From a virus: DNA of 25,300 nt. Positions 4,946-22,697 of this stretch are shown piece after piece. Where the stretch lies: positions 1 through 25,300 of IMG/VR virus record IMGVR_UViG_3300006802_000508; one strand, given 5' to 3'. Position 1 is the stretch's first letter, and each line of letters begins with the position of its first letter. The notes beneath the pieces are model-generated. The model was not told the origin of the DNA. It was given only the letters and a program-made list of their open reading frames with translations, and did not search any database. The position numbers and the translations under genes are program-made.

Positions 4946-5684
4946 AGGTATGCTCCAGCTTCCGGGTGCTAATGAATTCCCAACCGTCATGCGGGAACCC
5001 CCCGGCCACACCCTTAAGTAGTGTAACCCCGGAAGTCCACATGGCCTGGGCGGGACCAGCATAGCCTTCTTTCTGGTTGGGGTCAAGATAGCAGCCGGCC
5101 ACCAGCCCGAAGAGCTTCTCCCTGCCCTTTCGGATGGCCACGTCCCAGATGTGGGTATGGCCCATGACGCACGAGCGGTACTGCTTCTTGAGGAGAGTGG
5201 CCGCCGGGTACTCCCCGCCCACGCTCTTGCCCATCACCCCCGTCACGAAGTAGTGGGAGGCGGCGAGGCCCCGCACCTGGAACTCCTCAAGGAAGGGCAC
5301 CACCTCCCAGGTGGCCAAAGCCAGGTCGTCGGTGCTAAGGGTACCCCGTAGCTCGGGGACGTTGTCCACCGCCCTATCGATGCGGGCCTCGTGGTTCCCC
5401 ATGAGAAAGACCTTCTTGCCCTTCCACAACCCCAAGGTGAAGAGGGCCTGGTTGGCGGCAGCCATATCGGCGTTGATGGTCCTGCCGTCGAAGCTGCCCT
5501 TCCGCCGCCCGTTGCCCGTGAGGGCGCTGCCGTCATAGGAGGAGAGGGAGGGCATATCGGCCAAGTCCCCCAGGCACAGGAGCATATCCGGCTGGGTATC
5601 CTTGAGGTACTTGAGGAGCCACTCGAACCGGCGGTTATTGACTCCGGGGCGCGCGTGGGAATCCGGGAGGATGAGGACGTTCAC
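4938..5684 (-). CDS. Calcineurin-like metallophosphoesterase
   Basis: The 248-residue product has the full dinuclear-metal signature in order: LPDSH (Asp8, His10), CLGDLAD (39-43), LMGNHEARI (GNHE 96-99), ASHYF (His144) and VMGHTH (175-178). It hydrolyses a phosphoester; candidates are a phosphorylated protein, nucleotide, nucleic acid or sugar phosphate. The start is GTG 5684, overlapping the upstream TGA, with GAGGAGAT a few bases upstream. It directly follows two sugar-transfer genes in one coupled unit, so a part in the same modification pathway is plausible. Phage phosphoesterases of this fold also act as lambda-type protein phosphatases or in DNA metabolism. The fold call is secure; the substrate is unknown. 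Confidence 0.9.
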   Translation of the reverse strand: MNVLILPDSHARPGVNNRRFEWLLKYLKDTQPDMLLCLGDLADMPSLSSYDGSALTGNGRRKGSFDGRTINADMAAANQALFTLGLWKGKKVFLMGNHEARIDRAVDNVPELRGTLSTDDLALATWEVVPFLEEFQVRGLAASHYFVTGVMGKSVGGEYPAATLLKKQYRSCVMGHTHIWDVAIRKGREKLFGLVAGCYLDPNQKEGYAGPAQAMWTSGVTLLKGVAGGFPHDGWEFISTRKLEHTYG

Positions 5685-7852
5685 TTGAAGATCTCCTCAA
5701 GGGTCGGAAGCTCCTGCTTCTTGTCGCCCAGGATGAGCTTCCAGATGGTGGGGCCCACGCCCTCCCCGTGGCAGTAGATGCGCATGCCCATCTCCGCCGC
5801 ATGCTCGAAGAAGTACTGGGCGTCCTGTGAGGCGGCAATCAACTCCCCCGTGCTCCAGAACTTCTTGCCCGTCTGCCCGATGGAAATCTCCATGTACTTG
5901 GGGCGACCCTGCTCATCCTTGGCCGTCTTGTCAATTTGGCCCTCGGGGTAGCAGAAGTCGAATCCGAAGAGGTGGAACTCGCTATACCCCAGGGAGAGGC
6001 TCAGGGACATTGCCCGCCACGCCGCGCAGGTGCCGCCGTTGACGAGGAGGGAACCCGGCGGGAACACCTCGCTCTTCAGCAGCGCCTGCGTCATGGCGTG
6101 CCAGCCCCACACATTCTTGGTGCGCGCCATCACGTGCCGCGTGACGGAGGGGTCGGACATCGAAGCCACCAGCACCTTCGTGGTGGGCGGGATGTCCTCA
6201 AGGAGGTCGGTGCGCTTGATGCCGTGAGTGGAGATGCCATCGACGGGGCGCGGATCCAGCAGCACGAGGTAGTGGGGGTCGATGCCCCAGCCCAGCACCG
6301 TGGGCAGCGAGTGCTTCACCACCGCCACGTCGGCACCCTCCCGCCACATCTTGAGGATCTTGTCCTTCCTCTTGTGGATGTCGGGGCCCGCCGACACAAT
6401 CACCAGCTTGCGGGAGTGGGGCCGCGCCTTGGTGACCCACCGGGAGAGCAACTCCATGTTCTCCTTGACGTTGCTGATGATGTGGTCCTTGGGCATGCAA
6501 TCCTGCGCCGTGACCTTGAGGGGCACACCCCCCATGCCCGCCCCCGGAAGATCGGGGAGGCCCTCGCCCACCGCCGCGATCTGGACGATGCCACCCCCTG
6601 ACACCCTATCCTTGCTCTTGTAGACGCGCTTCTCCCGGAGGATGCGGGTGAAGGTGGCCTCCACCCCCCTGAATTCGGCAGCGGGCATCCCGCCCTCGGG
6701 GTCCGCCACGTAGTAGTCGTCGAAGACCACCACGGGAATGCGCTTGCACATCTCCCAATCATGTGCGATGGTATCCACCGAGTGGCCCCCGTCGAGCCAC
6801 GCGAATTCCACGCCCGCCACTTCCCGGAGGGTATCCTTGGTGTCCCCCTTCGTGAGGTGGAACTCGAACTTCTTTCCCTTGGCGGCCATCGCCTCCGCGA
6901 ACTCTCCCAACTTCTTGGTTACATCCTCAAGGGAGAAGTGCTTCTTGATGTTGTGTTCCTTGGCGTCGGTATCCGCCGATGCCTCCTCGAAGAGGTCGTA
7001 GCCGTGGTAGACAACGTGGTCGTGTTTCCCAAACGCAACCTGCGCCATCTGCAGGGCCCGGTCACCATTCCATGTGCCGGTCTCCAGCAGGACGCTGGGC
7101 ATGTAGTGCTGGACGAGAGCCAGCAACTGGTCGTAGCGGGTCCTCAGTCCCGGGATAACCTTGGTGTTCTTGCGAGCCCCCTTGAGGTGGGTGAAGACCT
7201 CCTTCAGCGGGCTGTTCTCGAAGGCGTCGAGCCCTACGTAGTCGGGGTCCACGAGGTTGACGGCCTCCAGCCCATGCATCTTGTGCATCTGGAGGACACG
7301 CTCGAAGATGAAGGCGTCAGTCCACTCGCTGTAGTTGAAGATCTCCCCCGTCATGTACATGTCGTACATATCGGCTATGAGGGTGCGCCCCTCATTCCCG
7401 GCGAAGTAGATGAAGCCCGTCTCCGAGTAGTTGATGCCCTTCCTCCCCAGGTGGGTGACGTGCCCCCGGCAGATATCCTGGAGCCACCCCAGGGTGAGGG
7501 GCTTTGTAGTGAGTACATCGCCGTCGAGCCACAGGAAGGGCGCAGGGTCACGAGCCGCATCGTGCAGGGCGAAGACCTTCGCGCAGAACTTCACGGCGTC
7601 CAGACGGTAGTTGTAACCCTCCGGGGTGTTCCCATCCTTGTCCGCGTGGGCCCGCTTGAATTCGTTGAAACCCTCGACTTCCTCAAGGCGCTTGACGACG
7701 AGGGGCCGGTGCTGGCATGAAACCTCGGCGGGGTCCATCCCATCCACGTAGACGGTGAGGGAGATGTTGGAGTCCCACAGGCGAGTGGAGTCCAGGAAGT
7801 TCTTGCCGTAGAGGTCCCAGCCCTTCGGCCCCCAAGAAGTAACGATTCTCAT
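5681..7852 (-). CDS. Three-domain fusion: glycosyltransferase-like, SAM methyltransferase-like and DUF115-like
   Basis: The product has 723 residues. Residues about 1-230 form a GT-A-like glycosyltransferase with FLWLDGDVLTTKPL (DGD at 110-112, a candidate nucleotide-sugar metal site). Residues about 235-430 form a class I methyltransferase of the TylF/CmcI (Methyltransf_24) kind: VLLETGTWNGDRALQMA is the SAM-binding loop, YHGYDLFEE an acidic end of a strand, and LDGGHS (353-358) with VVFDDYY (376-381) a likely metal site. Residues about 480-700 match DUF115/MAF-like proteins: LVIVSAGPDIHKRKDKI, GIDPHYLVLLDPR, NGGTCAAWRAMSLSLSLGY and HLFGFDF. DUF115 proteins are linked to flagellin glycosylation and related sugar transfer. 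The gene overlaps both neighbours by four bases or fewer. It probably makes or attaches a modified sugar; the acceptor is unknown. Confidence 0.85.
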   Translation of the reverse strand: MRIVTSWGPKGWDLYGKNFLDSTRLWDSNISLTVYVDGMDPAEVSCQHRPLVVKRLEEVEGFNEFKRAHADKDGNTPEGYNYRLDAVKFCAKVFALHDAARDPAPFLWLDGDVLTTKPLTLGWLQDICRGHVTHLGRKGINYSETGFIYFAGNEGRTLIADMYDMYMTGEIFNYSEWTDAFIFERVLQMHKMHGLEAVNLVDPDYVGLDAFENSPLKEVFTHLKGARKNTKVIPGLRTRYDQLLALVQHYMPSVLLETGTWNGDRALQMAQVAFGKHDHVVYHGYDLFEEASADTDAKEHNIKKHFSLEDVTKKLGEFAEAMAAKGKKFEFHLTKGDTKDTLREVAGVEFAWLDGGHSVDTIAHDWEMCKRIPVVVFDDYYVADPEGGMPAAEFRGVEATFTRILREKRVYKSKDRVSGGGIVQIAAVGEGLPDLPGAGMGGVPLKVTAQDCMPKDHIISNVKENMELLSRWVTKARPHSRKLVIVSAGPDIHKRKDKILKMWREGADVAVVKHSLPTVLGWGIDPHYLVLLDPRPVDGISTHGIKRTDLLEDIPPTTKVLVASMSDPSVTRHVMARTKNVWGWHAMTQALLKSEVFPPGSLLVNGGTCAAWRAMSLSLSLGYSEFHLFGFDFCYPEGQIDKTAKDEQGRPKYMEISIGQTGKKFWSTGELIAASQDAQYFFEHAAEMGMRIYCHGEGVGPTIWKLILGDKKQELPTLEEIFK

Positions 7853-8651: not shown

Positions 8652-11468
8652 TTACTCTCGCAATCTGGCGGCGTACTCCCCGCGAACCCCCTTCGGTACC
8701 GCTTCCAGGCGCTCGGGGCCCAACTGCATCTTCTTCAGCTTGTTCTGGATGCTGGTATTGAAGGAGGAGGGATCCTGGATGATGCGGTCCCGGAGGGGCT
8801 TGCCCCTATCATACTTGGCAATCTCCTTGAAGTACTCGTTGGCTTCTTGCCGGTACTTCACGCGGGCCTCGGCATCCAGCGCATTGAGGGACTTGTTGAG
8901 GGCGGTGGCAATCTTGTCGCTATAGGACTGCCGCGCCTCGTCCATCTTGGTGCCGAGTTGCTTGGTCTCCTCCAGCTTCTCGCGGCCCACCGCCACCTTC
9001 GTGGGAGTGAAGCCCATGCCCACCTTGGCCACATCGACGGTCTCCCGCATCTCCTTGGCGGGCACCGCCGGCTCGATCTTGCCGGGGGTGATGAAGCCGG
9101 ACTCCTGCATCACCTGGGACTTGACGATGTTGCGGACCATCAAGGGGGCCAGGGAGGCGTAGGCCATGGCGTCCTCGCCCTTGCTCTTGTAGGCCAGGAA
9201 GTCACGGATGCCGCCGCCCACCGCGCCCCCAAGGGGACCGAAGTTGGTCCAATCGAGTTGCAGCGGATTGAACTGGATGATGTCCAGCGCCGTCCTCTTG
9301 GAGATATCCACCCCCGAGGCGCGGAACGGCCCGTTGAGGACCATGTCGGCCAACTCGGCGGGGGTCCCCAAGAAGTTGAGGGCGGGCAAACTCTTGAACA
9401 TATCCTGGAGGGCCTCGCGCACCTGCGCGCGCACTGCCGTGGGACTGATGCCCAACTCCACCCCGAACTTGCGGGTGAACCAATCGAGGGCATCGCCCGC
9501 CGGGGCAAGGAAGGGCAGGCCCCAAATCCCCGAGGTGGACATGATGCCCATGAAGAGGAGCGTCGTCATCTTGCGCGCCTCTGAGGAGTTGGCGAGGTTG
9601 CCCCCGTAGTAGCGCATCGACTTGTTGAAGAGGCCCAGCATGAAGATGGGGAAGGCGGCAAACTGGGTGAGGACCCCGAGGGCCATCCCGTGCATGTAGC
9701 GCGCACGGAAAGCCTTGGACATCGTACCCTGGGTGTTATCGGAGGCGAAGAACGCGGCCTCCATGGGGTCGTTGACCTCCACCCCCACCTTCTTCCCGAA
9801 CTTGCCCAGGGTGTCCAAGGTCTTCTTGTCCTGCGCCATCCTAAAGGCAGCGAGGGCCGTGGCCATTCGGTTCATCGTCTCCACGGCGGTGAAGGCGAAA
9901 GAGCCTACCTCCACCACTTTGCCGATGAGCTTGCCCGCCGCGTACAACTCCTTTATCTGGCTGCCGGCAAGCTGGGTAGGGGCCTGGTCGCGCGAAAGCA
10001 TAGCCTGGAAGTGGCCCCGCTTCAAGCCCTCTCGCAGCATCTCCAACTCGGCGGGACTCACCTTGCCCACCAGCTTCTCGATTTCAAAGGGGTCACCCCC
10101 CGCAGAAAAGGTGAAGGCCTTGGTGATATCCTTGATGGCCCGCCCGAGTTGCATGGCGGCATTGCCGGTGCCACCCGCCGCGCCCAGGAAGGGCAGGGAG
10201 GCGTGGGGAATCTGGGTGAAGTTGACGACGGCGGAGGAGAGGTTGCCCCACAGCGTATAGAAGAAGGCCAGGGCCTTCAACTGGGCGGTGCGCGCCTCGT
10301 TGCTATGAAGGTACTCCTCCTGGGTGTTGGCGATATCTAGCAACTTGGGGTCGTTCTTGATGGAGGCCATCGCTTCCCGGCGCAGCCCCTCGGTGGCCTT
10401 GTTGGCTACCCAATCGGAGGTGGATGCCACGAACGGCGCGAAGATACTACGGAGGTAGGTATCGTAATTCTCGGGGGTGAGCCACCCCGGGACATTTTCG
10501 CGCTTGCGCAGGCGGGCCATGGGCACGGCAGCTTCCTGCCTGAGGGACTGAAGGATGTCCTTCACCTCCTCCATGCTAGCCCGGCCATTCTTCTTGGGAT
10601 TGAGGATGGCCGTAAAGAGAATGTCCATCTTGGTGATGGCATCGACCTTGGGGAGAAACTGCTTGAGAAGTTCCTTGCGCTCCACCATGTCGAAGGGCTG
10701 GGAGATCTCGGTGGCCCCCAGCTTCCTTAGCTCCTCGATGCGCTTGAGGGCCTGCTGCTTGCCCCCGCCCTGGAAACCCTTGATGGGATTCCACCCGAAG
10801 TCCTGGAGGTGCATCTGCCCGTTGAGGTTGTAGGTGATGCCCCAGCGCCCCTTGCGGATATGGGGGATGTAGCCCTCCTTGCGGATGGATTCCATGCGCC
10901 GAAGGATGAGGGCATCCCTGCCCATGGGTGTCTCGTTGGGCCCATACCCCATCGCCACCTTGGTGGAATCGATCATGTGGGTAAAGAGTTCGTCCATCAC
11001 CCGCCGCATTTCCTTGCGGGTATCATTCAGTTTCTTGGGGAGGGTTACCGTCTCGCCCTGCTTGACGCCGACGTGATCCTGCTGCGCCGTGATGGTAGCG
11101 GTGCCATCGGCATTCTCGGTGGCGAGGCGGCCCTCTGCATCCTCCACCTCCATGATGCGGGTGATGGCCCGCCCCTCTTTGGTGTCGAGGTCGGCCACCC
11201 TGCGCATCGACTCGGCATACTCGTAGTTCAGGCGGCTACGAATCTGCTCGCCCGTCTTCAGGGCGTTGACATAGGGGCGCAACTGGGGCCAAGTGGTAGC
11301 CAGGTTGTCCAGCGAGACGAAGCCCGACATGAACTTGAGGAAGCCGTTCATGGCGCGGAATGGCTCGTCCCCCGCCTTCATCGCCTCAAGCTGCTGGCGC
11401 TGCACCTCCACCCGCTGGAAAGCGGGGGTAAGCACCCTGGACCTCTGGGGGTTGCAACTATTGGCCAT
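8652..11468 (-). CDS. Large internal virion / polyvalent protein, 938 aa (LPD38-like)
   Basis: ATG 11468 is preceded by AGGTAAGAG, which also contains the upstream stop. The product is largely helical. Residues about 395-740 contain the segment TLWGNLSSAVVNFTQIPHAS, hydrophobic and Gly/Ala-rich stretches and KAFRARYMHGMALGVLTQFA, matching what I recall of the large polyvalent protein-associated domain LPD38 at the ends of giant phage proteins. The C-terminal 150 residues are charged helices (EAMAYASL..., AEARVKYRQEANEYFKEIAK). Such proteins are carried in the capsid and ejected with DNA. It directly follows the 1645-aa protein, so the pair may correspond to a polyprotein that is one gene in other phages. 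No enzyme motif is obvious. Confidence 0.75.
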   Translation of the reverse strand: MANSCNPQRSRVLTPAFQRVEVQRQQLEAMKAGDEPFRAMNGFLKFMSGFVSLDNLATTWPQLRPYVNALKTGEQIRSRLNYEYAESMRRVADLDTKEGRAITRIMEVEDAEGRLATENADGTATITAQQDHVGVKQGETVTLPKKLNDTRKEMRRVMDELFTHMIDSTKVAMGYGPNETPMGRDALILRRMESIRKEGYIPHIRKGRWGITYNLNGQMHLQDFGWNPIKGFQGGGKQQALKRIEELRKLGATEISQPFDMVERKELLKQFLPKVDAITKMDILFTAILNPKKNGRASMEEVKDILQSLRQEAAVPMARLRKRENVPGWLTPENYDTYLRSIFAPFVASTSDWVANKATEGLRREAMASIKNDPKLLDIANTQEEYLHSNEARTAQLKALAFFYTLWGNLSSAVVNFTQIPHASLPFLGAAGGTGNAAMQLGRAIKDITKAFTFSAGGDPFEIEKLVGKVSPAELEMLREGLKRGHFQAMLSRDQAPTQLAGSQIKELYAAGKLIGKVVEVGSFAFTAVETMNRMATALAAFRMAQDKKTLDTLGKFGKKVGVEVNDPMEAAFFASDNTQGTMSKAFRARYMHGMALGVLTQFAAFPIFMLGLFNKSMRYYGGNLANSSEARKMTTLLFMGIMSTSGIWGLPFLAPAGDALDWFTRKFGVELGISPTAVRAQVREALQDMFKSLPALNFLGTPAELADMVLNGPFRASGVDISKRTALDIIQFNPLQLDWTNFGPLGGAVGGGIRDFLAYKSKGEDAMAYASLAPLMVRNIVKSQVMQESGFITPGKIEPAVPAKEMRETVDVAKVGMGFTPTKVAVGREKLEETKQLGTKMDEARQSYSDKIATALNKSLNALDAEARVKYRQEANEYFKEIAKYDRGKPLRDRIIQDPSSFNTSIQNKLKKMQLGPERLEAVPKGVRGEYAARLRE

Positions 11469-11471
11469 CTC

Positions 11472-14400
11472 TTACCTGCAATCGTAGGGTTTGGTGGCGG
11501 GCTCCCCCATCTCCACCTGCCTATTGATATCATCATTCAGCTTGCGGGCAAACTCCGCAAGATCCTTGTTGCCCTTCGGCAGGTTGAGTTCCCGCGAGTT
11601 GACTTCGGGGAAGAACTCGGAGATGGCGCGCCACGCCCGGTCCTGCCCCAGCGTCGTCCACTGCTCGCGACCAACTGGAATGTTTTCCTGTCGAAGTTTT
11701 TCCTGACGCTTCTTTGTTTCAACTTTCTTATCGACTACGTCCTTGAAGTCACGAATTGTGGAGGTTACTTTTTGACCAAGCTCTTGCAGCTTTGGGAGTT
11801 CTACTCCAAGTACATTCTCCACCATGGCAGAGGCTTTACGGGTATTCTGGTACATTGAGTAGATGGTAGAAGCGGGAATCTTGCTGACGATCTCCTTGGC
11901 TTTGCGGAAAATCGCAAAGTCTTCCCGTGACTCTTCGAGCATTTTGTCAAGTCTGTCAAAAAACTCCGCTGGCCACTCCGAAATTGGTTGCGAAAACGGA
12001 TGGTCAGATTCTACGTTCTTGCGAATAAACTCCGCAAAAGCTTGACGATTTTCCGGTTTATCGAAATTGTTCGATGTCAGTGTGTCTAATATGTCGTAGG
12101 TGCTTCTACGAAAATTTCCCGCATCTTCTATATAATTTGTTGGTAATTCCGCAATTTCTCCGTCCATCATTATTCTAGCCCATTTAGTACTTCCATCTAA
12201 GGCTGCCTCTTTCATAGTATCTTCTAAGCGATGACGAAAAACTACATAGTCGGAGCTTGGTTTAAATGCGGGGATGCCTTCGCGCAACATAGATATGAGT
12301 GAATTGTAATCGTATCCATTTATTACAGCATCGAATTCATCTGCAAAAACAGAATTACCCGATTGCTCAAGAATGTTTTTGATGACCTCGGTGCTGCTTT
12401 CCGCATCGATCTCACGTAAAGCTTTTCCGATGGCAGCTTGTTTTTCGCGATAAGCCACTATCTGTTTTTGAATTCTGCTTTGAATTGGGTTTCGCGTTTC
12501 TCCCGCCTTAGAAACTCTGCCATCGGTGCGCAGGTCAAAATAATCTTGCCATACGCGCTCAACATTGGATTCTGCCTTGTTCATGGCCTCCTTGATTTGC
12601 CTGCCCTTGGCATGCCAATCGGAAGGCAACCCCGGAATACCCTTGCCCGAAATGATGTCGCGCATGGTCGTGACCATGTCGGCGGCCTTGCCCGCCCCCG
12701 CGCCTGCCGCCATTACTGCCCGTCCCGTCGGGCTCACGGCAGCAGCCGCCTGCCCCATTCCCCGCAGGAACCCGCGACGACCCAGGCCGGAAGACATAGC
12801 TTGGGGGATATCGGCTTCGGTGGCCGAAGGGGGCATCGTATCCTGCAGCGAGTTGAGCCACTCGGCCACTTCCTGCGAGGGGGCAAACTTGCTACGCGCC
12901 CCCGTGAAGAACCGGCGCAGGGTATCAGCCAGCTTCTTGAAGAACTTGTCTACCGCCGTAAGGGGCTTCTCCTGGGTGGTGGCCCACCTGGAAACCTGGT
13001 CCGCGAACCACTCGCCAAACGACTGCCAATAGAGGGAGAGGTCCTTGGCGGGGTACGTCCCTGCTCCTTTTACGCCACGCCCGCTGCGCAGAGCCCGCAT
13101 CGCCTCGGCGTATTCGCGCGCCGACTTGGGAAGGTTCTCCGCCTGGAACTTCTTGAAGGCAGCCTCGATGCGCCTCCTGACCTCGGGGGAAGCATTCTGC
13201 AGGGCCACCTTCTCTACCAAGTGTCCCATCTCGTGTGCCAGGACTTCCAGCGTCTTGACGACGGTCATCCCTGGGCGCACAATCACGACGTGGTCACCAT
13301 CCCCAAGGGAGACGCTAATTCCATTGGTCCCCGGGAATTTCTGCGCCAGGTCCATGAGCCTGCGCCACTTGCCGGCGAACCTGTTCCCCATCTCCCGCGC
13401 GGCCTCAGGAGTAACCAGGAGGATGCGCTGGCCGCCCAGCCCCAGCATACCCATCCACTCGCGGGCAATCCCCGCCACCTCTGGCTTGACATCGGGAGAT
13501 GCATGCAGCTTCTCGCCCGCCTTGAAGGGGCCGTTGGGATTGGCGGCAGCCTCCTTGTTCTCGGCGGCAACCACGTCAGCGCGCGCCTTCTGCAGCTTCG
13601 CCAACTCCTCCTTGGTGAAGAGGGCGTTGTCCCTGACCCTATCGAGGCTAACCGGCAGCAGCCTGTCACCCTTGGCGGGCACATAGATGGTGCTGCCCAG
13701 CATTGAGCTAGTCTGAACGAGGGCGAGGTTGCCCTCCTGCCACACCACCCGGCCACCAATGTCCCGGGCATGCTGCTCTGCCAGGCTCTCGGACATCGCT
13801 TGGGCGGCGGGGGGCTTCTTCTCGCGGCGCTCCGCCACGTCCCGCGCTTCCTCCACGGACATCCCGCCAATGTCCTCGCGGGTATACCCCAGGCCATATA
13901 GCTTGTTGCGGGTGCCCTTGTCGAGGAGTTCCTGCCCGGTGACCTCGGTGGGCTTGTCCATGCGCGGGCTGCCCTCGTCCCTAAACTGGGTGGACAACTC
14001 CGCTTCGGGGTTGGCGCGGAAACCCAGCCCGGCGCGCTTCACATCCCCGTTGGAGGAGAGGGCTTCCCAGATGTCCTTGGCCTGCTGCTGGGTGAGTTCA
14101 ACCCCCGGCCCCCCTGCGGCATCCAGATCCTTCTTGGTCAGGATCTTCTTGGGGTCCATGCGAATGACGCGGTTGCGCATCGCCTCGTACTGCAGCGGGG
14201 TAAGCCCCGCCGGGGGATTCTGCAGGGTGCCCTGCAGCGGGGTGACGGGGCGCGACACCTCGGTGCCCAGCGTGACGCCCTCGAAGCCGCCCTTGGTCGG
14301 AACCCCCGTGGGCTCCCCGATCTGCTGCCGAACTGGGGTGCCAGAGGGCGTACCCACCTGCTTGACGAATACTCCGTCTTCCCCCTGCACTCGGCCAAGG

Positions 14401-16409
14401 CGGAACTGAGCGTCCACCGGCACATACGATTCCGCCCCTGGAGCATACTGCGCAAGAATATCGATGACATCCTGCTTGGAAGCATCGAGTCCCGCATCCT
14501 TGAGGCGCTGCTGCATGACAGGAAGGGAGACGCGCTGGCCCGCCTTAAGCTCCCCAAGGTAGTCCTCGACTTCCTTGCGTACCCACGACTGCAGCTTGGG
14601 TGCCCCCTCTGCAACCTGTGCCCCTTCTTCCCTACGGAGATTCAGTACGAGGTTGCGGGCAACATCGGGGCCCATCTGGGCAATCTGGTCTAGCCTATAC
14701 CCCGCATCCAAAAGGGCATCACGGACATCCTCGGGGACCTGGGCCCTCTCCGTCTGCAGGGGGGTGGCGCGGGACGGGAAATCCCCGAAGCCCAAACCGG
14801 CCAGCATCTCCTCGTCGGCCAAGCGCTCCGTGCGCTCCTGAGTGCGTCGCTGGGTCTCGCGCTGCCGCGCCTCGTCGAACTGCTGGCGGAAAGCAGGGTC
14901 GCGCAGCAGGGAGGTATCGGCGTTGCCCCGCTGGATGATATCGGCGTCAGAAGCCCGCTGGGCCTCCTCGGCGCGGCGCGCCTCTCCCCGCCGGGTGGCC
15001 TCTTGCTCCGCCGCGACCTTCTTGGCTTCCTGGTCCTTCACATACAGGAAGACTTGGTCCTGGACCTCCAGGTCCAATTTGCGCATCTTCTTGAGATACG
15101 CCTTGCGCTGCGAGGGCGGGAGGTTCTCCTCGGCGTACTTCTCCGCCGCCTCCAAATCCACTCGGCCTTCATCGGTAAAGGTCACGTTGGGGTTGCTGCG
15201 GCGCAGGAGGGAAACGGCATCCCTTTGGAAGTTGGGGCCGGCGGGCGGCTCCTCACCCAAGAGGGCATAGCGCTCCTGCAACTCCGCTTGGCGCTGCTCT
15301 TCGGCCTGCTGCTCCCCGCGCATCTCCCCCAACTGGGCGGCCTCGCGGGCCTTTGCCCTTTGCCCCACGAAGCCAGCAGCCGCGCCGGGCACGGCAGTAC
15401 CGAAGGCACCCTTGAGGGAGGCTTCCGCGATGTCCTTCCAGTTGATGGACTTGTCCGCCAGCGTGGCAACGGCAAGCTGGTCAAGTAGCTCCTGGGTACC
15501 CTCGGTGAGACCTTCGAGGGCGGCGGATTCGAGGAGACCACCGATGGCCCCCGCCATGCCCGGCATCCCCTTGAGGAGGCGGCCCGCCAGCACATCGGAG
15601 AGCTTCTCCGAGAAGTCGATGCCCCGCGTCTTCTTGATGAGTTGGAGGGGACCCAGTATGTCGAGGGAGGACTTGAGGCCGCCCACCAGTGTCGCCACCT
15701 CGGGCCGCATCTCGCCCGTCTCGGTGTAAATTTTGGCGAAGGTCTCCGGCATATTCTGGGCGGCGGAGCCCAGGGCCAACCCGGCCATCTGCCCCCAGTT
15801 CCTGCCGATGAGGGCGGGGGCAGCTTCCAGGGCAGCCTTCTCGATGGCAGCGCGCGTACCCGCATCAACGGCGATACCGGCAGCCTCCCGCTTGGCAATC
15901 TCCTTGGCGGCAGTTTCGGCAGCGGTGGATGCCACTTTTCCGGCGGCGCGCGACACAGCGGCTCGTCCCACCGTGGAAGCACCTGCGGCCCCCAGGCCCA
16001 CGCCGGGAATGGCGGCGGTAGCAAGGCTCACCGCGCCCTCGCCCACGCTCTCGCCCAGGAAAGAGAGGAAGGACCCTACATCCTTGATGTCCTCCAGGCC
16101 CACCCGGCTGCCCAGCCCAGACTCCTGCAGCTTCTTAAGGCGCTCCTGGTACTCAAGGAGGTTCTTCTGGGCAGCCTCATCGTACCCAAAGGCACTCTGG
16201 ACAAGGGCGGGCAGCGCCTCCGAGAGGAGCCCCTTGGTGGTTTCCACCCCGGTGGTAATACCACGGGAGATGGCCCCCGGACCCTCGGGGTTCTTGCCCT
16301 GCACCCACTCGACGCCATTCCATTCGGCGTTCAGGGCACCAGGTTTGCCCTGGGCCTCCACCCACTGGGAGGTAGCATCATCCCATTCGACCTTGAGCGG
16401 AATCGCCAT
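11472..16409 (-). CDS. Giant internal virion/ejection protein, 1645 aa, with embedded HExxH metallopeptidase
   Basis: The N-terminal 40 residues are a Trp-rich repeat-like stretch. About 60-390 is Gly/Ala-rich with amphipathic or membrane-active segments (FLSFLGESVGEGAVSLATAA, GMPGMAGAIGGLLESAALEG), typical of proteins that cross the envelope during DNA ejection. About 390-560 is highly charged coiled coil. Two UBA-like helical modules (GYRLDQIAQMGPDVAR near 575 and GYTREDIGGMSVEEAR near 850) follow. A zinc metallopeptidase core reads VLAHEMGHLVEK (H1059-E1060-x-x-H1063) with a likely third ligand in FGEWFADQ (Glu1133). GRRGFLRGMGQ (R1211-R1212) resembles a twin-arginine motif. Residues about 1284-1574 are encoded by conspicuously AT-rich DNA. 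It probably enters the host with phage DNA; the protease may act on virion or host proteins. Confidence 0.82.
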   Translation of the reverse strand: MAIPLKVEWDDATSQWVEAQGKPGALNAEWNGVEWVQGKNPEGPGAISRGITTGVETTKGLLSEALPALVQSAFGYDEAAQKNLLEYQERLKKLQESGLGSRVGLEDIKDVGSFLSFLGESVGEGAVSLATAAIPGVGLGAAGASTVGRAAVSRAAGKVASTAAETAAKEIAKREAAGIAVDAGTRAAIEKAALEAAPALIGRNWGQMAGLALGSAAQNMPETFAKIYTETGEMRPEVATLVGGLKSSLDILGPLQLIKKTRGIDFSEKLSDVLAGRLLKGMPGMAGAIGGLLESAALEGLTEGTQELLDQLAVATLADKSINWKDIAEASLKGAFGTAVPGAAAGFVGQRAKAREAAQLGEMRGEQQAEEQRQAELQERYALLGEEPPAGPNFQRDAVSLLRRSNPNVTFTDEGRVDLEAAEKYAEENLPPSQRKAYLKKMRKLDLEVQDQVFLYVKDQEAKKVAAEQEATRRGEARRAEEAQRASDADIIQRGNADTSLLRDPAFRQQFDEARQRETQRRTQERTERLADEEMLAGLGFGDFPSRATPLQTERAQVPEDVRDALLDAGYRLDQIAQMGPDVARNLVLNLRREEGAQVAEGAPKLQSWVRKEVEDYLGELKAGQRVSLPVMQQRLKDAGLDASKQDVIDILAQYAPGAESYVPVDAQFRLGRVQGEDGVFVKQVGTPSGTPVRQQIGEPTGVPTKGGFEGVTLGTEVSRPVTPLQGTLQNPPAGLTPLQYEAMRNRVIRMDPKKILTKKDLDAAGGPGVELTQQQAKDIWEALSSNGDVKRAGLGFRANPEAELSTQFRDEGSPRMDKPTEVTGQELLDKGTRNKLYGLGYTREDIGGMSVEEARDVAERREKKPPAAQAMSESLAEQHARDIGGRVVWQEGNLALVQTSSMLGSTIYVPAKGDRLLPVSLDRVRDNALFTKEELAKLQKARADVVAAENKEAAANPNGPFKAGEKLHASPDVKPEVAGIAREWMGMLGLGGQRILLVTPEAAREMGNRFAGKWRRLMDLAQKFPGTNGISVSLGDGDHVVIVRPGMTVVKTLEVLAHEMGHLVEKVALQNASPEVRRRIEAAFKKFQAENLPKSAREYAEAMRALRSGRGVKGAGTYPAKDLSLYWQSFGEWFADQVSRWATTQEKPLTAVDKFFKKLADTLRRFFTGARSKFAPSQEVAEWLNSLQDTMPPSATEADIPQAMSSGLGRRGFLRGMGQAAAAVSPTGRAVMAAGAGAGKAADMVTTMRDIISGKGIPGLPSDWHAKGRQIKEAMNKAESNVERVWQDYFDLRTDGRVSKAGETRNPIQSRIQKQIVAYREKQAAIGKALREIDAESSTEVIKNILEQSGNSVFADEFDAVINGYDYNSLISMLREGIPAFKPSSDYVVFRHRLEDTMKEAALDGSTKWARIMMDGEIAELPTNYIEDAGNFRRSTYDILDTLTSNNFDKPENRQAFAEFIRKNVESDHPFSQPISEWPAEFFDRLDKMLEESREDFAIFRKAKEIVSKIPASTIYSMYQNTRKASAMVENVLGVELPKLQELGQKVTSTIRDFKDVVDKKVETKKRQEKLRQENIPVGREQWTTLGQDRAWRAISEFFPEVNSRELNLPKGNKDLAEFARKLNDDINRQVEMGEPATKPYDCR
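11690..12560. other. AT-rich mosaic segment inside the 1645-aa gene
   Basis: Base composition falls visibly from about 11690 to 12560 (runs such as aaaatttccc, ataatttgttgg, ttattacagcatcg) and then returns to the usual GC-rich, GC3-rich pattern on both sides. The reading frame stays open throughout, so the segment codes for residues about 1284-1574 of the giant protein. Codons such as AGA, TTA, AAT and GAA become common here. The boundaries are eye estimates. This suggests exchange of a C-terminal module with a lower-GC relative, not decay. Confidence 0.7.
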
Positions 16410-16412
16410 TCG

Positions 16413-17684
16413 TCACCTGGGGGCAGCAGGAAGAGCCTGGGGAAGTGCCCCCGTCAGCGCAAGTAGGTTACGCCGCGCCGCTTCCCTGACTGCGGGATCC
16501 GTCTGCGGGTTGGCAATAATCTCATTGAGCCTGCGGGTCTCCTCGATGCGCTGGGCCTCGCCCGCAACAGACTGACGACCCTCCGCCCCGATGTAGGCAC
16601 CGCCAGCGCGCTGGGCTGCCGCCCGCAGGATGGGAATGCTCTCAAGGCGCGAGCGCTGCTCCGGCGTCCTCTGGTTCTCGGGGATGCGCTCAAGCTCCCC
16701 GCGCTCCCGCTCCAGGTTCTCGACGATCCGGTAGGCTTCGCCGGGTCGCATCTGGTTGCGCTCCGCTTCCCGCTTGAGTTCAAATTCCGCGCGGTCCAGG
16801 GCCAGCTTGGCAGCCTGCCGCCCCTCTTCGCTGACGCCCTTCTCGATGAGGAAGCGCAACTGCTGCTCGGCCACATTACGCTGGCGCTCCGCCTGCCCAA
16901 GTTCAAGCAGCTTGCCTTCGACTCCCCGCTGGGACTCGTAGCGACGATAGGCTTCCGTCCGTGCCTCCTTCGCCTCCTCGCGCTTGGATGCCCGCTCCTT
17001 CTCCTTCTCGCCCCGATACTGCTCGACACCCTTGGCGAGGGGCTCCGAGATGACGTTGAGGCCGCTGCGACCCAACTCCGGCTTGGCCGCCAGGATGCGA
17101 AGGCCCGTCTGCAGCATCGTCATGTAGGGGTCGGCCTTGTAGGTCTCCTCGGCCTTGCGCTCCTCGGGCATCCCCTTGAGCATGCGCTCGCGGATCTCCC
17201 CCTCGTTGAGGGGCTCCGGCGGCTTGAACGGGGTGAAGCGCAGGGGTGACCCCGCCCCACCGGACAGCAGGCGATCTATATTCGAGCGCCCCAGATCTGG
17301 CTGGGTCCTACCCCCCGGAGTGGCGCTTCCGCCCGGCGGCTGCGTGGTATCAGCGATAACCGGAGGCGCGGCATCTCCGCCAAGCGGCGCGGGCCCTCGT
17401 GGCGCACGAGCAATACTCTGGGCGATTTCGGCCCCCGACCCCCCGGAAGAAAGCTCGGGGACCACCGGGATCTGGACGGTGCCCTCGGGACGCCCCGAAA
17501 CCCGCCGCCTGTAAATCTCGTCGCGAATCTGAGATTCGCGGTAGGGGCCGGGACCCCACGACGTGCGAGACCTCTCCAGCATCTCCTGGAGTTCGCTGAG
17601 ATTGAACGCGGAAAGAGGGCGCGCGGGGGGCTGCCGCTCTCCACCCATGCCACCAAATTCTTCCATGCCGGAATAATCACTCAT
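16413..17684 (-). CDS. Coiled-coil virion protein of unknown function, 423 aa
   Basis: ATG 17684 overlaps the stop of the transglycosylase gene (ATGA). The N-terminal 165 residues are Pro/Gly-rich and look disordered (for example PPARPLSAFN, TQPPGGSATPGGRTQPD). From about 165 to 410 the protein is strongly charged and helical with long Glu/Arg/Lys-rich heptad-like runs (EKEKERASKREEAKEARTEA, AERQRNVAEQQLRFLIEKG, LERERGELERIPENQRTPEQ). No catalytic motif is visible. Its place between the transglycosylase and the giant ejection protein suggests an inner-core or ejectosome component. Just three bases separate its stop from the next ATG. Confidence 0.75.
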   Translation of the reverse strand: MSDYSGMEEFGGMGGERQPPARPLSAFNLSELQEMLERSRTSWGPGPYRESQIRDEIYRRRVSGRPEGTVQIPVVPELSSGGSGAEIAQSIARAPRGPAPLGGDAAPPVIADTTQPPGGSATPGGRTQPDLGRSNIDRLLSGGAGSPLRFTPFKPPEPLNEGEIRERMLKGMPEERKAEETYKADPYMTMLQTGLRILAAKPELGRSGLNVISEPLAKGVEQYRGEKEKERASKREEAKEARTEAYRRYESQRGVEGKLLELGQAERQRNVAEQQLRFLIEKGVSEEGRQAAKLALDRAEFELKREAERNQMRPGEAYRIVENLERERGELERIPENQRTPEQRSRLESIPILRAAAQRAGGAYIGAEGRQSVAGEAQRIEETRRLNEIIANPQTDPAVREAARRNLLALTGALPQALPAAPR

Positions 17685-18253
17685 GTCACGGGGTCTCCAA
17701 GCACATTGATGCCGGGCGGGAATGTCCCGACGTTACCATACATCTGCTGGATGTCGTAGATGTCCAAGCTGCCCTTGCGCGTGGGCTGGGAGGCGGCCCC
17801 GGAGGGGCGCGACACGCGAAGCTCATCTTCCTTGGCTTCGGTGGCTCGCCGGAAAACGGGATCCTTTGCGCGCACCTGGGTGATGTAGTCGCGCACCTGG
17901 CGGGGCAGCTTCCCGTACCAATCCTCGCCATGCACCTGGAGGTGCCGGTCAAGTTTGGCGGGCCCCCAATTGTAGGCGGCGAGTGCCTTGTTGTCGTCGC
18001 CGTACTTCTTCTGCATATTCTTGAGGAAGGTGAGGCCGCCCTCGATGTTCTCGTAGGGGTTGTACCGATTGACCTTGAGGTCCTTGGCGGCATCCGCCCC
18101 AAGCTGCATGGGACCGTAATACTTGCTGCCCGCCGTGGCCCTGTTGGGAGAATCGCGCGTCTCGTGATAGTACACGCCGTAGAACGGGGAGGATACGTCC
18201 CCCCGCGCAAACCTCTCCTCGTAGTACTTGTCGAGTACTTCGTTGGTCGGCAT
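17681..18253 (-). CDS. Virion-associated lytic transglycosylase (SLT/GH23)
   Basis: The 190-residue product has the SLT fold signature: GVYYHETRDSPN (Glu31, expected catalytic acid), KYYGPMQLGADAAKDL, YNPYENIEGGLTFLKNM and NKALAAYNWGPAKLD. It cleaves peptidoglycan without hydrolysis, and phages use such enzymes to open the cell wall during DNA entry, as in the T7 gp16 or P22/N4 internal proteins. It is a separate small gene instead of a domain of a larger protein. The C-terminal 45 residues are low-complexity (SGAASQPTRKGSLDIY). It lies between two internal virion genes, not in the lysis cassette, which supports the entry role. ATG 18253 is three bases past the upstream stop; the ribosome-binding site is weak. 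Confidence 0.9.
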   Translation of the reverse strand: MPTNEVLDKYYEERFARGDVSSPFYGVYYHETRDSPNRATAGSKYYGPMQLGADAAKDLKVNRYNPYENIEGGLTFLKNMQKKYGDDNKALAAYNWGPAKLDRHLQVHGEDWYGKLPRQVRDYITQVRAKDPVFRRATEAKEDELRVSRPSGAASQPTRKGSLDIYDIQQMYGNVGTFPPGINVLGDPVT

Positions 18254-18256
18254 GAA

Positions 18257-19210
18257 TTAGAATCCAGGCAAGCCGAGTGCCGTGGGGCTCATGCGGCTGG
18301 CCCAATTGGAAGCAAGACCTGAAGGCGAGCCACCGTACCCCATGAGGTTGTAGATGCTGGCACCAGTGAGGCCGAGGCCTGCAGCAGTCTGCAGCGGGGA
18401 CATCTGGGGGATGAGGGTCTGCCCCTGCGTCGTGGTGGTGGCACCCGGCTGCGCCCCCCGGAGGAGACTCCCGAGTTGACCAAGCTGGCCCATCCCATAC
18501 TGCTGGCCCCGCAGGTACTCCTGGAAGGCGAGGTCACGCTGCTGCTGCTCCAACTGGCGCGGGAGAGCCTGGCTCTTCATGATGGCATCTAGGCCACCCA
18601 GACCCAACTGCTGCGCCTGCGCGCCCATCTGGGAGAAGAGAGGGGCCGCCTGCAACTGCCGCTGGGCTTCCTGCTGCGCGAGGGCGGTACCGGAGGTGAA
18701 GGCCCGCTCTTGCCCCGTCTGCTGGATATCCGCGAGGCGCTGCCCCAGATTCCTTTCAGCTTCGGCTTCTTGCACACCGTAGCGCGCCCCGCCGAAGGCA
18801 CCCTGCCTGCTGGCCTGGAAGCCCCTCTGGGGCCGCATCTTCTCGTAGTCCCGCACGGCCTCGCGCTTGGCGATATCGGTGACGTACTGAGTGTAGGGGT
18901 TCATGTACTGGGAGTAGTCGATATCGCCCACCCCCCGCGAGCCCAATGCGGCACTTTCAAAGCCGGCGGCCAGCCCTGGCATGTAGGCCCCTGCGGCCTG
19001 GGGGGCTGCTCCAATGGCCTGCTGCTCCGTGGCGCTAAGTGGGGCAATGCGCTGCGACGGGTCGTAATACTCGTAGGGGGTGGCCCTCACCTCGGCTTCG
19101 CCGGCCTCGACGATCCGCTTGAGAGCATCCTCGTACCACGATGGGAACTGCGACGACTGAACGGTCGTAGTGGGCTGCGTCGAGGTGCTGGACTTGCAAA
19201 GGAAACCCAT
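18257..19210 (-). CDS. Internal virion / injection-type protein, 317 aa
   Basis: The product has a Ser/Thr-rich start (SSTSTQPTTTVQSSQFPSWY). It then has a conserved-looking core, SQYMNPYTQYVTDIAKREAV, followed by RQGAFGGARYGVQEAEAERN, and a Gln/Ala/Gly-rich remainder (QAAPLFSQMGAQAQQLGLGG). The combination MNPYTQ..V followed by GAFGG.R...E recurs in many podophage and related virion proteins thought to be carried with the DNA or in the tail; exact function is not known. There are no cysteines apart from Cys5 and no enzyme motif. ATG 19210 overlaps the GNAT stop (TGATG). Confidence 0.78.
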   Translation of the reverse strand: MGFLCKSSTSTQPTTTVQSSQFPSWYEDALKRIVEAGEAEVRATPYEYYDPSQRIAPLSATEQQAIGAAPQAAGAYMPGLAAGFESAALGSRGVGDIDYSQYMNPYTQYVTDIAKREAVRDYEKMRPQRGFQASRQGAFGGARYGVQEAEAERNLGQRLADIQQTGQERAFTSGTALAQQEAQRQLQAAPLFSQMGAQAQQLGLGGLDAIMKSQALPRQLEQQQRDLAFQEYLRGQQYGMGQLGQLGSLLRGAQPGATTTTQGQTLIPQMSPLQTAAGLGLTGASIYNLMGYGGSPSGLASNWASRMSPTALGLPGF

Positions 19211-20587: not shown

Positions 20588-20847
20588 GTCTTGTCCACCT
20601 TTACGAGACCCTTGTCTTGCAGGTCGGAAAGCAACTTCACGAGGGTGTTGGCCACCGCCGTGACGGTAATGTTCCCCAGATCGATGGTGGCGCTAGCTGG
20701 GATTGTACCAGAGACAGCGTAGCCTGTCACCCCGGGGCCCGTCACCACCTGGCCGTGGTAGAGGTTGAGGACGCGCACCAACTCACCCCACGCACTCTGG
20801 GCATCGGGCTGGAGGGAGAGAGGGGGAAGGGGCAGGAGGGGCTTCAT
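20584..20847 (-). CDS. Small virion-block protein, 87 aa, unknown function
   Basis: The protein starts with a Pro/Leu-rich stretch (KPLLPLPPLSLQPDAQSAW), continues with a helix (GELVRVLNLYHG) and ends with a helix (VANTLVKLLSDLQDKGLVKV). The middle holds Thr/Ala/Val-rich strands (TIPASATIDLGNITVTAV). It is joined to the gp10-like gene and the 318-aa gene by ATGA overlaps on both sides. Similar short proteins sit beside tail-hub genes in podophages. I cannot assign a function; a tail or head-completion accessory role is likely from context. Confidence 0.72.
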   Translation of the reverse strand: MKPLLPLPPLSLQPDAQSAWGELVRVLNLYHGQVVTGPGVTGYAVSGTIPASATIDLGNITVTAVANTLVKLLSDLQDKGLVKVDKT

Positions 20848-22697
20848 CGCTCACCGTCGGGGGCCACCCGAAAACGCATGGCACCCAAGCGCCACGAGGT
20901 GTTGACACCATCCCCGTCGATGCGATAATATGCGTGGCGCCCCCGTATACGCAGGTCGATCTTCTGTGTCTGCGCCGATACGGTGAAGGGCCCCTTCGTG
21001 ACTTCCTGCGCCGTCGGAGTGTTGGGGTACTTGAGGGTGTGCAGCGTAATTTCGACGTTGCCCGGCATCTCATCCCCATTCCTATCGGAGAAGTCGGGGA
21101 TGATCCTATCCATGTACATCAGTTCTTGGCCCGCGTCCAGATCGAAGAGATTGCTCTCGATGTAGGATGGGAGGGCCGCTCCGTCGGCATCGTTGCCATA
21201 CTCATGATAGTAGAGCTTGGTGGCACTGCCGGCATACTCGGCGGCAATGGGGTAGGTGGCGATGCCCTGGTCGATCCACGCCGTGCGCACCATGGTGCCG
21301 ATTGACCACAGATTCTGCATGTAGTCATAGATGACGTAGGAGTCCACTTCGCCCGAGGTGGTGGGGTAGAACCAGATGACCTCGTTGTAGGAGGTGTTGG
21401 AGCCGCAGACGATCTTGTCTAGCTGGGTGCGATCCAGGGCCTCGAAGACGTAGCGCAGCACGTCGCACTTCAGGGGTCGCGCCGCCGCACCATCATACAT
21501 CATGAAGCGCTCGTCGGCCATCCAGTAGGTGCGGCCCCCCACCTCCGTCATGGCATTCTGGCCCAGCACCCCGCAGTTGGTGCCGATGAGTTGGAACCCG
21601 AAGGTATACGGCGGGCCGACCTGCTGCATGCTGTAGAGGTTCTCGTCGGTCCAGATGAGGATTTGGCCCCGGGTGCGCCTTGCTGCCACGATCTTGGAGG
21701 CTCCCGAGAGGACCTTGTCGCCCGCCGTGTTGGTTGCCGAGGCCGTCCAATCGTTGATGTCCTCCTGCGAGCACCACCGGATGTAGAGTGGGTTCACTAC
21801 TGAGGTCAGGGCGTCGGGGCACCCGAAGGAGATGAGGTGCCTATCTTCGGGGCTCACCAGGATCTGCGTATTTTGGGAGGGGGTGGCGGTAACCTGGTAG
21901 GCTCGCTTGGCGGTACCCTGCGAGGAATCCCAATAGTAGATGCCGTTGTCGCGGGGGGATGCCACCAGGTCCTCACCCCAATTGTCCATGCTCCAGTAGC
22001 GCAGCGGGGCCACGAAGGCTGAAGAGGCGGGAGTACCCCAGCCCTGGCCGCCGCTCCACACGCCCGCGCCCCACCCGAAGCTGGCGGCATTGCTGCCAAA
22101 CCCGGAAGGATGGATGAAGAAGCCCGTGGCCACGCCGCCCGAGGAAGCAGATGTGGCGGCGGCAGTAACCCCCGTATTGATGGTGAAGCTGTTGGCATCC
22201 ACCACCGTGATGGAGAAGCCCCCCAGGGGTGCACTGACCGGGTAGATGTTGCCGCCCACCGTGGTGGCCACCGAGGTGAAGTAGAAGTAGTCGCCGGTGG
22301 AGTGGCCGTGGGCCGACACTGAAACCGTGATGGTGGTGGAGCCCGCCGAGGTGCTGATGATGTTGGAGGCGGAAACCGAAGTGTCGACGGGGGTGATATA
22401 GTAGTACTTGCCGCCGTCCCACACCATGAGGTGGGAGTTGGTGCCCACCGCGAGGTAGGTGGTGCCCGCCAGGTTGACCCACGTGAAGAGGGAGCGGCCC
22501 ACGCCGGGTACCGTGACGGTGTCCCCCACGCCGTTGATGTTCTGCCACCCACCAATTTTTTCGGGCTGGCCGTAGCGGAACCTTACCTTGTCGGAATCGT
22601 ACCAGCCGCCCTCGCCCGCGTAGCGGGTAAGCTCCCGGTTGACGCCGGGCCTGGCGGGTGCCGTGATGAGGCGAGGACTACGGGGTGCTTCCGCCAC
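20844..22697 (-). CDS. P22 gp10-like tail hub / packaged-DNA stabilisation protein, 617 aa
   Basis: The N terminus (NRELTRYAGEGGWYDSDKVR, then FRYGQPEKIGGWQN) and the repeated strands of type LFTWVNLAGTTYLAVGTNSH, LVASPRDNGIYYWDSSQG, GQILIWTDENLYSMQQVG and GRTYWMADERFMMYDG match the beta-propeller-like family of P22 gp10, which closes the portal and links it to the tail needle or fibres. It is longer than P22 gp10 (472 aa), partly because residues about 108-192 form an extra beta domain (VSVSAHGHSTGDYFYF...VVDANSFTINTG). The start is GTG 22697, inside the preceding gene, with GGAGAAG about five bases upstream. The protein sits at the portal-tail junction of the virion. Confidence 0.87.
   Translation of the reverse strand: MAEAPRSPRLITAPARPGVNRELTRYAGEGGWYDSDKVRFRYGQPEKIGGWQNINGVGDTVTVPGVGRSLFTWVNLAGTTYLAVGTNSHLMVWDGGKYYYITPVDTSVSASNIISTSAGSTTITVSVSAHGHSTGDYFYFTSVATTVGGNIYPVSAPLGGFSITVVDANSFTINTGVTAAATSASSGGVATGFFIHPSGFGSNAASFGWGAGVWSGGQGWGTPASSAFVAPLRYWSMDNWGEDLVASPRDNGIYYWDSSQGTAKRAYQVTATPSQNTQILVSPEDRHLISFGCPDALTSVVNPLYIRWCSQEDINDWTASATNTAGDKVLSGASKIVAARRTRGQILIWTDENLYSMQQVGPPYTFGFQLIGTNCGVLGQNAMTEVGGRTYWMADERFMMYDGAAARPLKCDVLRYVFEALDRTQLDKIVCGSNTSYNEVIWFYPTTSGEVDSYVIYDYMQNLWSIGTMVRTAWIDQGIATYPIAAEYAGSATKLYYHEYGNDADGAALPSYIESNLFDLDAGQELMYMDRIIPDFSDRNGDEMPGNVEITLHTLKYPNTPTAQEVTKGPFTVSAQTQKIDLRIRGRHAYYRIDGDGVNTSWRLGAMRFRVAPDGER

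Follow-up and report, generated by a model that had tools for sequence, protein, structure and literature searches.

A zincin-like metallopeptidase module occupies an exchangeable position in a giant phage protein that is probably ejected into the host

The window analysed here is a 25.3-kb virus record; all coordinates refer to this window and residue numbers to its giant protein P0001. P0001 (1645 aa) is encoded at 11472..16409 by an intact ORF of 1645 codons with an ATG start. A first-pass annotation of this DNA had placed a 1645-residue ORF at these positions, which was borne out, and we add that it lies on the minus strand. The surrounding genes are arranged on the same strand in the order virion structural protein (617 aa, 20844..22697; phrog_3287, E 1.1e-75), DNA-ejection-protein-like gene (317 aa, 18257..19210; phrog_4287, E 4.4e-16), SLT transglycosylase (190 aa, 17681..18253; PF01464, E 1.1e-10), a 423-aa protein with no family match of note (16413..17684), P0001 and P0002 (938 aa, 8652..11468). 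Gaps of only 3 nt separate P0001 from the 423-aa protein upstream and from the adjoining P0002. Just beyond P0002 a 723-aa protein (5681-7852, minus strand) shows methyltransferase (PF13578) and MptE-like (PF01973) matches. This gene context supports the view that P0001 is a virion protein which is probably ejected into the host together with the DNA, and its residues 39-165 weakly resemble a PHROG family named 'virion structural protein' (E 5.1e-5). P0001 contains no strongly hydrophobic helix (Kyte-Doolittle 1.5 over 19 residues), and neither P0001 and P0002 nor P0013 and P0014 matched anti-phage defence profiles.

We divided P0001 into segments, partly by comparing it segment by segment with seven sister loci (L001, L002, L003, L004, L005, L006 and L016). 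All segments are encoded on the minus strand. The N-terminal scaffold (residues 1-871; 13797..16409) is retained in sister phages whichever payload they carry. It is followed by the N-terminal part of an exchangeable module (residues 872-977; 13479..13796), delimited by a homology block and by the sister breakpoints, and by a zincin-like metallopeptidase domain (residues 978-1200; 12810..13478), delimited by alignment, predicted fold and structure matches. A short linker, IPQAMSS (residues 1201-1207; 12789..12809), which is also found at module junctions in L002 and L005, leads into a segment we call module X (residues 1208-1594; 11628..12788). Module X has a low GC3, opens with the twin-arginine-like segment GRRGFLRG (residues 1210-1217; 12759..12782) and is missing along with the zincin in L002 and L004. 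The C-terminal anchor (residues 1595-1645; 11475..11627) is kept in L001, L002, L004, L005, L006 and L016.

The putative active site lies in two motifs of the zincin-like domain. HEMGH (residues 1059-1063; 13221..13235) holds the predicted zinc-binding histidines and the predicted general base Glu1060. FGEWFAD (residues 1131-1137) starts 72 residues past the first His of HEMGH and contains Glu1133 (13011..13013), the predicted third zinc ligand on a second conserved helix. The HExxH...E site with Glu1060 that the first-pass annotation had recognised is therefore present as described. Any HExxH at all occurred in 4 of 2000 whole-protein shuffles of P0001, and HExxH followed by FxE[WF]xA[DE] in 0 of 2000. 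Between the two motifs lies an invariant tyrosine, Tyr1127 (13029..13031), which is a candidate transition-state residue.

Relatives of the zincin were found in the named phages Microcystis phage Mae-Yong1326-1 (E 2e-6) and Vibrio phage VS-ABTNL-3 (E 5e-4), and weaker ones in Microcystis phage Mel-JY34 and Vibrio phage PG11. The proteins of Mae-Yong1326-1, VS-ABTNL-3 and Mel-JY34 have an HExGH and an SFxE motif in common. In GenBank the first of these (L007 9367-16692) is named 'peptidoglycan transglycosylase' and the VS-ABTNL-3 protein (L012 10132-15504) 'putative DNA methylase', the zincin being mentioned in neither name. The related protein of Mae-Yong1326-1 also carries an LPD1 domain, near which a second HExxH is located.

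A profile scan of viral contigs returned 123 loci, the best 80 of which were used. Their open frames, some of them ended by a contig edge, range from 1,055 to 3,117 aa, and all 80 encode HExGH. Together with P0001 these best 80 of 123 loci gave 81 aligned rows, in which H1059, E1060, G1062, H1063, Y1127, E1133, W1134, A1136, W1142, P1149 and F1157 are invariant (81/81). Two motifs served as seeds for the scan: the HExxH pattern alone matched 74 of the 80 loci, the SFxEW pattern alone three and both patterns three. Since most rows were retrieved through HExxH, the invariance of Tyr1127 and Glu1133 is a freer test than that of HExxH itself. Glu1133 was kept in all 74 loci found by the HExxH pattern only and, conversely, HExxH in the three found by the SFxEW pattern only. 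The HExxH motif was thus lost in none of the homologues seen among the best 80 of 123 loci. In bacterial genome contigs we found seven loci, with HExGH in 7/7 and the second motif, by pattern, in 5/7. Pfam gave no match for the zincin of P0001 itself; when 53 members of the alignment were searched, 31 touched Peptidase_M78 and 18 the putative metallopeptidase DUF6782, all of them weakly. Judged by its substitution pattern the zincin is under purifying selection, with dN/dS of 0.40 against L005, 0.18 against L001 and 0.36 against L016, a range (0.2-0.4) that cannot separate a host target from a self target. The block common to P0001 and unrelated giant proteins mostly starts at about residue 870-890 and ends at about 1190 in most of the best 80 of 123 loci.

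AlphaFold2, run on 53 aligned rows, predicted a confident zincin (pLDDT 88.4, pTM 0.87). In model numbering its elements are H2-13, E20-24, E55-61, E64-69, H75-95, which bears HExxH, and H156-170, which bears Glu1133, with further helices between and after them. The two motifs are thus placed on two core helices of the model. Its three-stranded sheet with one N-terminal and two C-terminal core helices is the layout of the polyvalent-protein MPTases. The best BFVD match was a phage 'Large polyvalent protein associated domain-containing protein' (E 1.2e-10, TMq 0.81, 27% identity). Foldseek found nothing in the PDB at E <= 1e-3 (best 0.023), the best E of a PDB sequence search was 0.078, and a single-sequence search gave nothing convincing. 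VIA-align, a comparison which covers only the families in its list, gave Z values of at most 8.5 against the PDB. The nearest solved structures include Pro-Pro endopeptidase 2 (PPEP-2; 6fpc, Z 6.6, rmsd 3.5 over 138 residues, 21% identity). Z values of the model against PPEP-2 and the catalytic chains of lethal factor were 6.6-7.6, which are weak scores and unaccompanied by a Foldseek E <= 1e-3. We take these nearest solved zincins to be of the M34 type. PDB titles among the structure matches name PPEP variants altered at a Glu and a Tyr, and by analogy Tyr1127 may be the counterpart of the PPEP tyrosine. Conservation, the predicted zincin and the BFVD match together support the metallopeptidase identity given by the first-pass annotation well, as the ORF and its neighbours do for its embedding in a large protein within an ejection-protein gene block.

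A zincin of this kind has already been described. According to Iyer et al. 2017 (PMC5512222), who give the same fold description, no domain is commoner in the polyvalent proteins of phages and plasmids than the zincin-like MPTase, which is present in about 36% of them. The substrates proposed there for such peptidases are either the protein's own chain, processed before or after injection, or host proteins. The zincin of P0001 belongs to this kind: it has HExxH and a Glu on a later helix, a three-stranded sheet with flanking helices and a place in a very large phage protein, and its nearest predicted structure is named after LPD domains. It differs in that no Pfam model matches it and that its partner C-terminal domain is encoded by a separate gene. 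Polyvalent proteins unite several domains of disparate activity in one polypeptide and enter the host packaged with the DNA; in P0001 one enzyme domain was recognised. Three residues after HExxH P0001 has Glu1066, where one widely distributed phage MPTase clade has an Asp as a clade marker; strand 2 of that clade also ends in a His (PMC5512222).

Three other known systems show partial likeness. The N4-type virion RNA polymerase (vRNAP), an ejected giant protein, has a zincin (C1) domain (PMC12633501; PMC8472413); as in P0001, whose ejection is probable, a large C-terminal part comes after the HExxH domain. The vRNAP of Vibrio phage PG11 is weakly similar to the P0001 zincin (E 0.1), and PPEP-2 (6FPC) is a structural match both for the P0001 zincin and for the vRNAP of CB1 (PMC8472413). 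In contrast to the N4-type proteins, no RNA polymerase domain was found in P0001, and neither Pfam nor PHROG matched P0001 or P0002 to a polymerase family. We also asked whether P0002 is homologous to the C-terminal part of the vRNAP and rejected this, as its comparison with the PG11 vRNAP gave no match. M34-type zincins (PPEP, the lethal-factor catalytic domain) are among the best PDB structural matches, with weak scores that imply no likeness in target, and differ from P0001, which is probably injected into a bacterium by a phage. T7 gp16-like proteins are internal virion proteins that build the inner-membrane portion of the ejection channel. Like them, P0001 is a large late protein encoded near a transglycosylase and an ejection-protein-like gene; here the transglycosylase has its own gene and the exchanged enzyme is a metallopeptidase. 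Transfer of enzymatic domains from one ejection protein to another is known (PMC8954989).

P0002 is similar to the C-terminal region of giant phage proteins, among them a family named DarB-like, and has two strongly hydrophobic helices (Kyte-Doolittle 1.5 over 19 residues). A P0002-like domain and the zincin occur on one polypeptide in 31 of 80 viral loci (best 80 of 123) and likewise in VS-ABTNL-3 and Mel-JY34. Because the homologues are fused in these phages and loci, the products of P0001 and P0002 probably act together.

The comparison of the sister loci revealed that the zincin is part of a replaceable unit. L001, whose homologue of 1648 aa covers nearly all of P0001, has the same layout as the window. 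The 1949-aa protein of L005 contains the zincin and an extra module at the IPQAMSS linker, bracketed by two copies of the linker and its DNA, and in L016 a diverged module X (21.5% identity) comes after the zincin. L003 ends before the exchanged module and L006 begins after it. L002 and L004, which come from two metagenomes, are 99.99% identical over 15.6 kb and are therefore taken as one virus population. Their protein has 1111 aa and is missing residues 872-1594 of P0001, the remainder matching residues 1-871 with 84-98% identity by segment and the C-terminal anchor with 63%; the identities are 99% for P0002 and 86% for the structural protein P0010. The module that replaces residues 872-1594 weakly matches phrog_498 (E 0.0021) and phrog_620, a 'ParB-like partition protein' (E 0.012). 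It has no Pfam match, and its one phage relative is a protein of Dolichospermum phage Dfl-JY45 that is itself without a Pfam match. On the 61-kb L004 contig, which may be incomplete, there were 0 zincin matches. As far as can be read from these possibly incomplete contigs, one phage of the group does without the zincin module. The breakpoints between sister phages lie at residues 868-871 and in the linker at 1201-1207. Since the edges of the block shared with unrelated giant proteins coincide with these exchange points, the zincin module is a unit of evolution. Our literature search, which was not exhaustive, turned up no report of a zincin being swapped between sister phages inside a shared scaffold, and we claim no priority.

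Two further differences were seen among the sister loci. In L005 a second block of the N-terminal scaffold is exchanged, with 35% identity at residues 386-650, no match at 651-714 and 96% in the flanks. In L002 only 20% of the SLT transglycosylase (window 17681-18253) is matched and a 294-aa ORF stands there instead (L002 5857-6741). The extra module of L005 had seemed to us by eye to hold what we took for an ART-like motif. This assignment was dropped, as the module had no PHROG, Pfam, PDB-sequence or phage match and its single-sequence fold reached a pLDDT of only 31.8.

Module X stands out by composition. Its GC3 is 0.50, compared to 0.80-0.81 in the preceding parts of the gene, its GC is 0.489, and the L016 counterpart is also low (0.477). 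Such low values within a GC-rich gene, recurring in L016, point to a foreign origin. Outside the sister group no homologues of module X were found in bacterial genome contigs or phages. Its 21.5% identity with the L016 C-terminal part has an E of 2e-21, calculated for that pair alone with composition correction off. The L016 counterpart likewise opens with a twin-arginine-like segment, GRRSLMQG (L016 protein residue 691), in mid-protein. Module X accompanies the zincin in the window, L001, L005 and L016, whereas L002/L004 have neither of the two.

For motif counts we used 51 non-redundant giants, that is the best 80 of 123 loci minus near-copies more than 90% identical around HExxH. The idea that these proteins hold many short-linker cleavage sites each was tried with a loose motif, which occurred 46 times in the 51 giants compared to a shuffled mean of 27.6 (maximum 43). 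We dropped it because the surplus was in large part concentrated at a single position behind the zincin, where relatives, though not the window, have a QxxLF-type peptide. In 17 of the 51 giants (L019, L023, L024, L028, L032, L041, L045, L051, L052, L056, L057, L064, L068, L069, L078, L080 and L082) a peptide Q[LMI]x[LMI]F is located 148-156 residues after HExxH, and an exact QLSLF occurs elsewhere in L076 and L091. The window and its four nearest rows are without the Q[LMI]x[LMI]F peptide. Counted at all places the pattern occurs 21 times in the 51 giants, with a shuffled mean of 4.25 (maximum 9), which is no independent test because the pattern had been noticed in the same sequences before counting. 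A slightly looser pattern is present in 18 of 52 rows and clustered in one part of the zincin tree, requiring 7 changes compared to a shuffled mean of 15. The peptide fits the bacterial sliding-clamp-binding consensus QLxLF (PMC4549789); the word 'clamp' is absent from Iyer et al. (PMC5512222). This QxxLF-type peptide might serve for docking to the host replisome, or it might be no more than a conserved end of the domain.

Taken together we consider it probable that residues ~872-1200 of P0001 form a zincin of the polyvalent-protein kind that serves as an exchangeable payload in an ejection protein working with P0002. The enzyme is exchangeable, sits between a constant scaffold and anchor and gives way in a close relative to a domain that may be directed at nucleic acids, all of which makes it look like a payload. 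The protein would be packaged in the head, with the zincin held between the constant scaffold (1-871) and anchor (1595-1645), and ejected with the DNA; among close relatives the payload would be swapped for other modules. Once inside, the zincin would presumably bind zinc and, at an early stage of infection, cleave a small number of host proteins or just a single one. Of the uses suggested by the first-pass annotation, cleavage of host targets after entry, along with self-processing of the injected polypeptide, fits best. We tentatively rank the host target first, at somewhat short of even confidence. Our second choice, which we regard as rather unlikely, is self-cleavage at or close to IPQAMSS (1201-1207), in the host or in the head, by which the zincin would free module X. 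Such a cut would be in keeping with the joint presence of zincin and X in four genomes and their joint absence in L002/L004, with a linker that lies just past the zincin domain and recurs at module junctions, and with the autoprocessing that Iyer et al. propose for these domains, citing P1 DdrB, which is cut before packaging (PMC5512222). However, zincin and X are jointly present in only four genomes and jointly absent in a single population, many relatives have a different sequence at the place of the linker, and the linker copies, present or duplicated at the L002 and L005 junctions, share almost the same DNA, so that recombination accounts for them and no cleavage is needed. An extended version, a self-unpacking vehicle in which the zincin cuts at IPQAMSS, the freed X uses GRRGFLRG...AAAA to enter or traverse the inner membrane of the host from within and modules are reloaded at the linker, seems to us quite improbable.

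The remaining roles are harder to reconcile with the sister phages. Cutting of capsid or other virion proteins during assembly, a form of the maturation role that the first-pass annotation had offered, would suit a zincin encoded in the structural block, and a maturation role has been suggested for a jumbo-phage zincin (PMC7824862). It is disfavoured by L002/L004, where the same scaffold, the next gene at 99% and the structural protein at 86% are found without a zincin in the gene or on the contig. As this sister has the same virion genes and, on its possibly incomplete contig, no zincin, we consider general virion maturation very unlikely; it is also without module X, which leaves room for a role in processing X. 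The same annotation had proposed that the enzyme clears the path through the envelope, which would mean trimming periplasmic or membrane proteins in the way of the DNA. This is conceivable in so far as ejection proteins cross the periplasm and those of other phages carry enzymes, such as the transglycosylase of T7 gp16 (PMC8954989). A separate SLT transglycosylase gene, however, already fits the job, 'protease' and 'peptidase' have 0 occurrences in the text of that review (PMC8954989), and the exchange of the payload for a weakly ParB-like module suggests action in the cytoplasm, so that we rate envelope clearing lower still. Least probable of all appears a structural relic, in which the zincin fold would persist because it aids packaging or stability and catalysis would be unimportant. 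N4 would agree with it, as its protein enters the head uncut and cannot be encapsidated without the zincin-bearing region (Iyer et al., PMC5512222), but the predicted catalytic positions and Tyr1127 are invariant in the 81 rows (best 80 of 123 loci), Glu1133 is kept in 74/74 rows found only through HExxH, and the module is dispensable in L002/L004, provided that this phage is viable.

The sister group thus provides close relatives with and without a zincin in the same scaffold, so that comparing these naturally occurring forms, or an E1060A mutant, could reveal what the enzyme does. Should it indeed be a payload, the constant parts 1-871 and 1595-1645 would represent a natural frame for delivering different proteins into bacteria.
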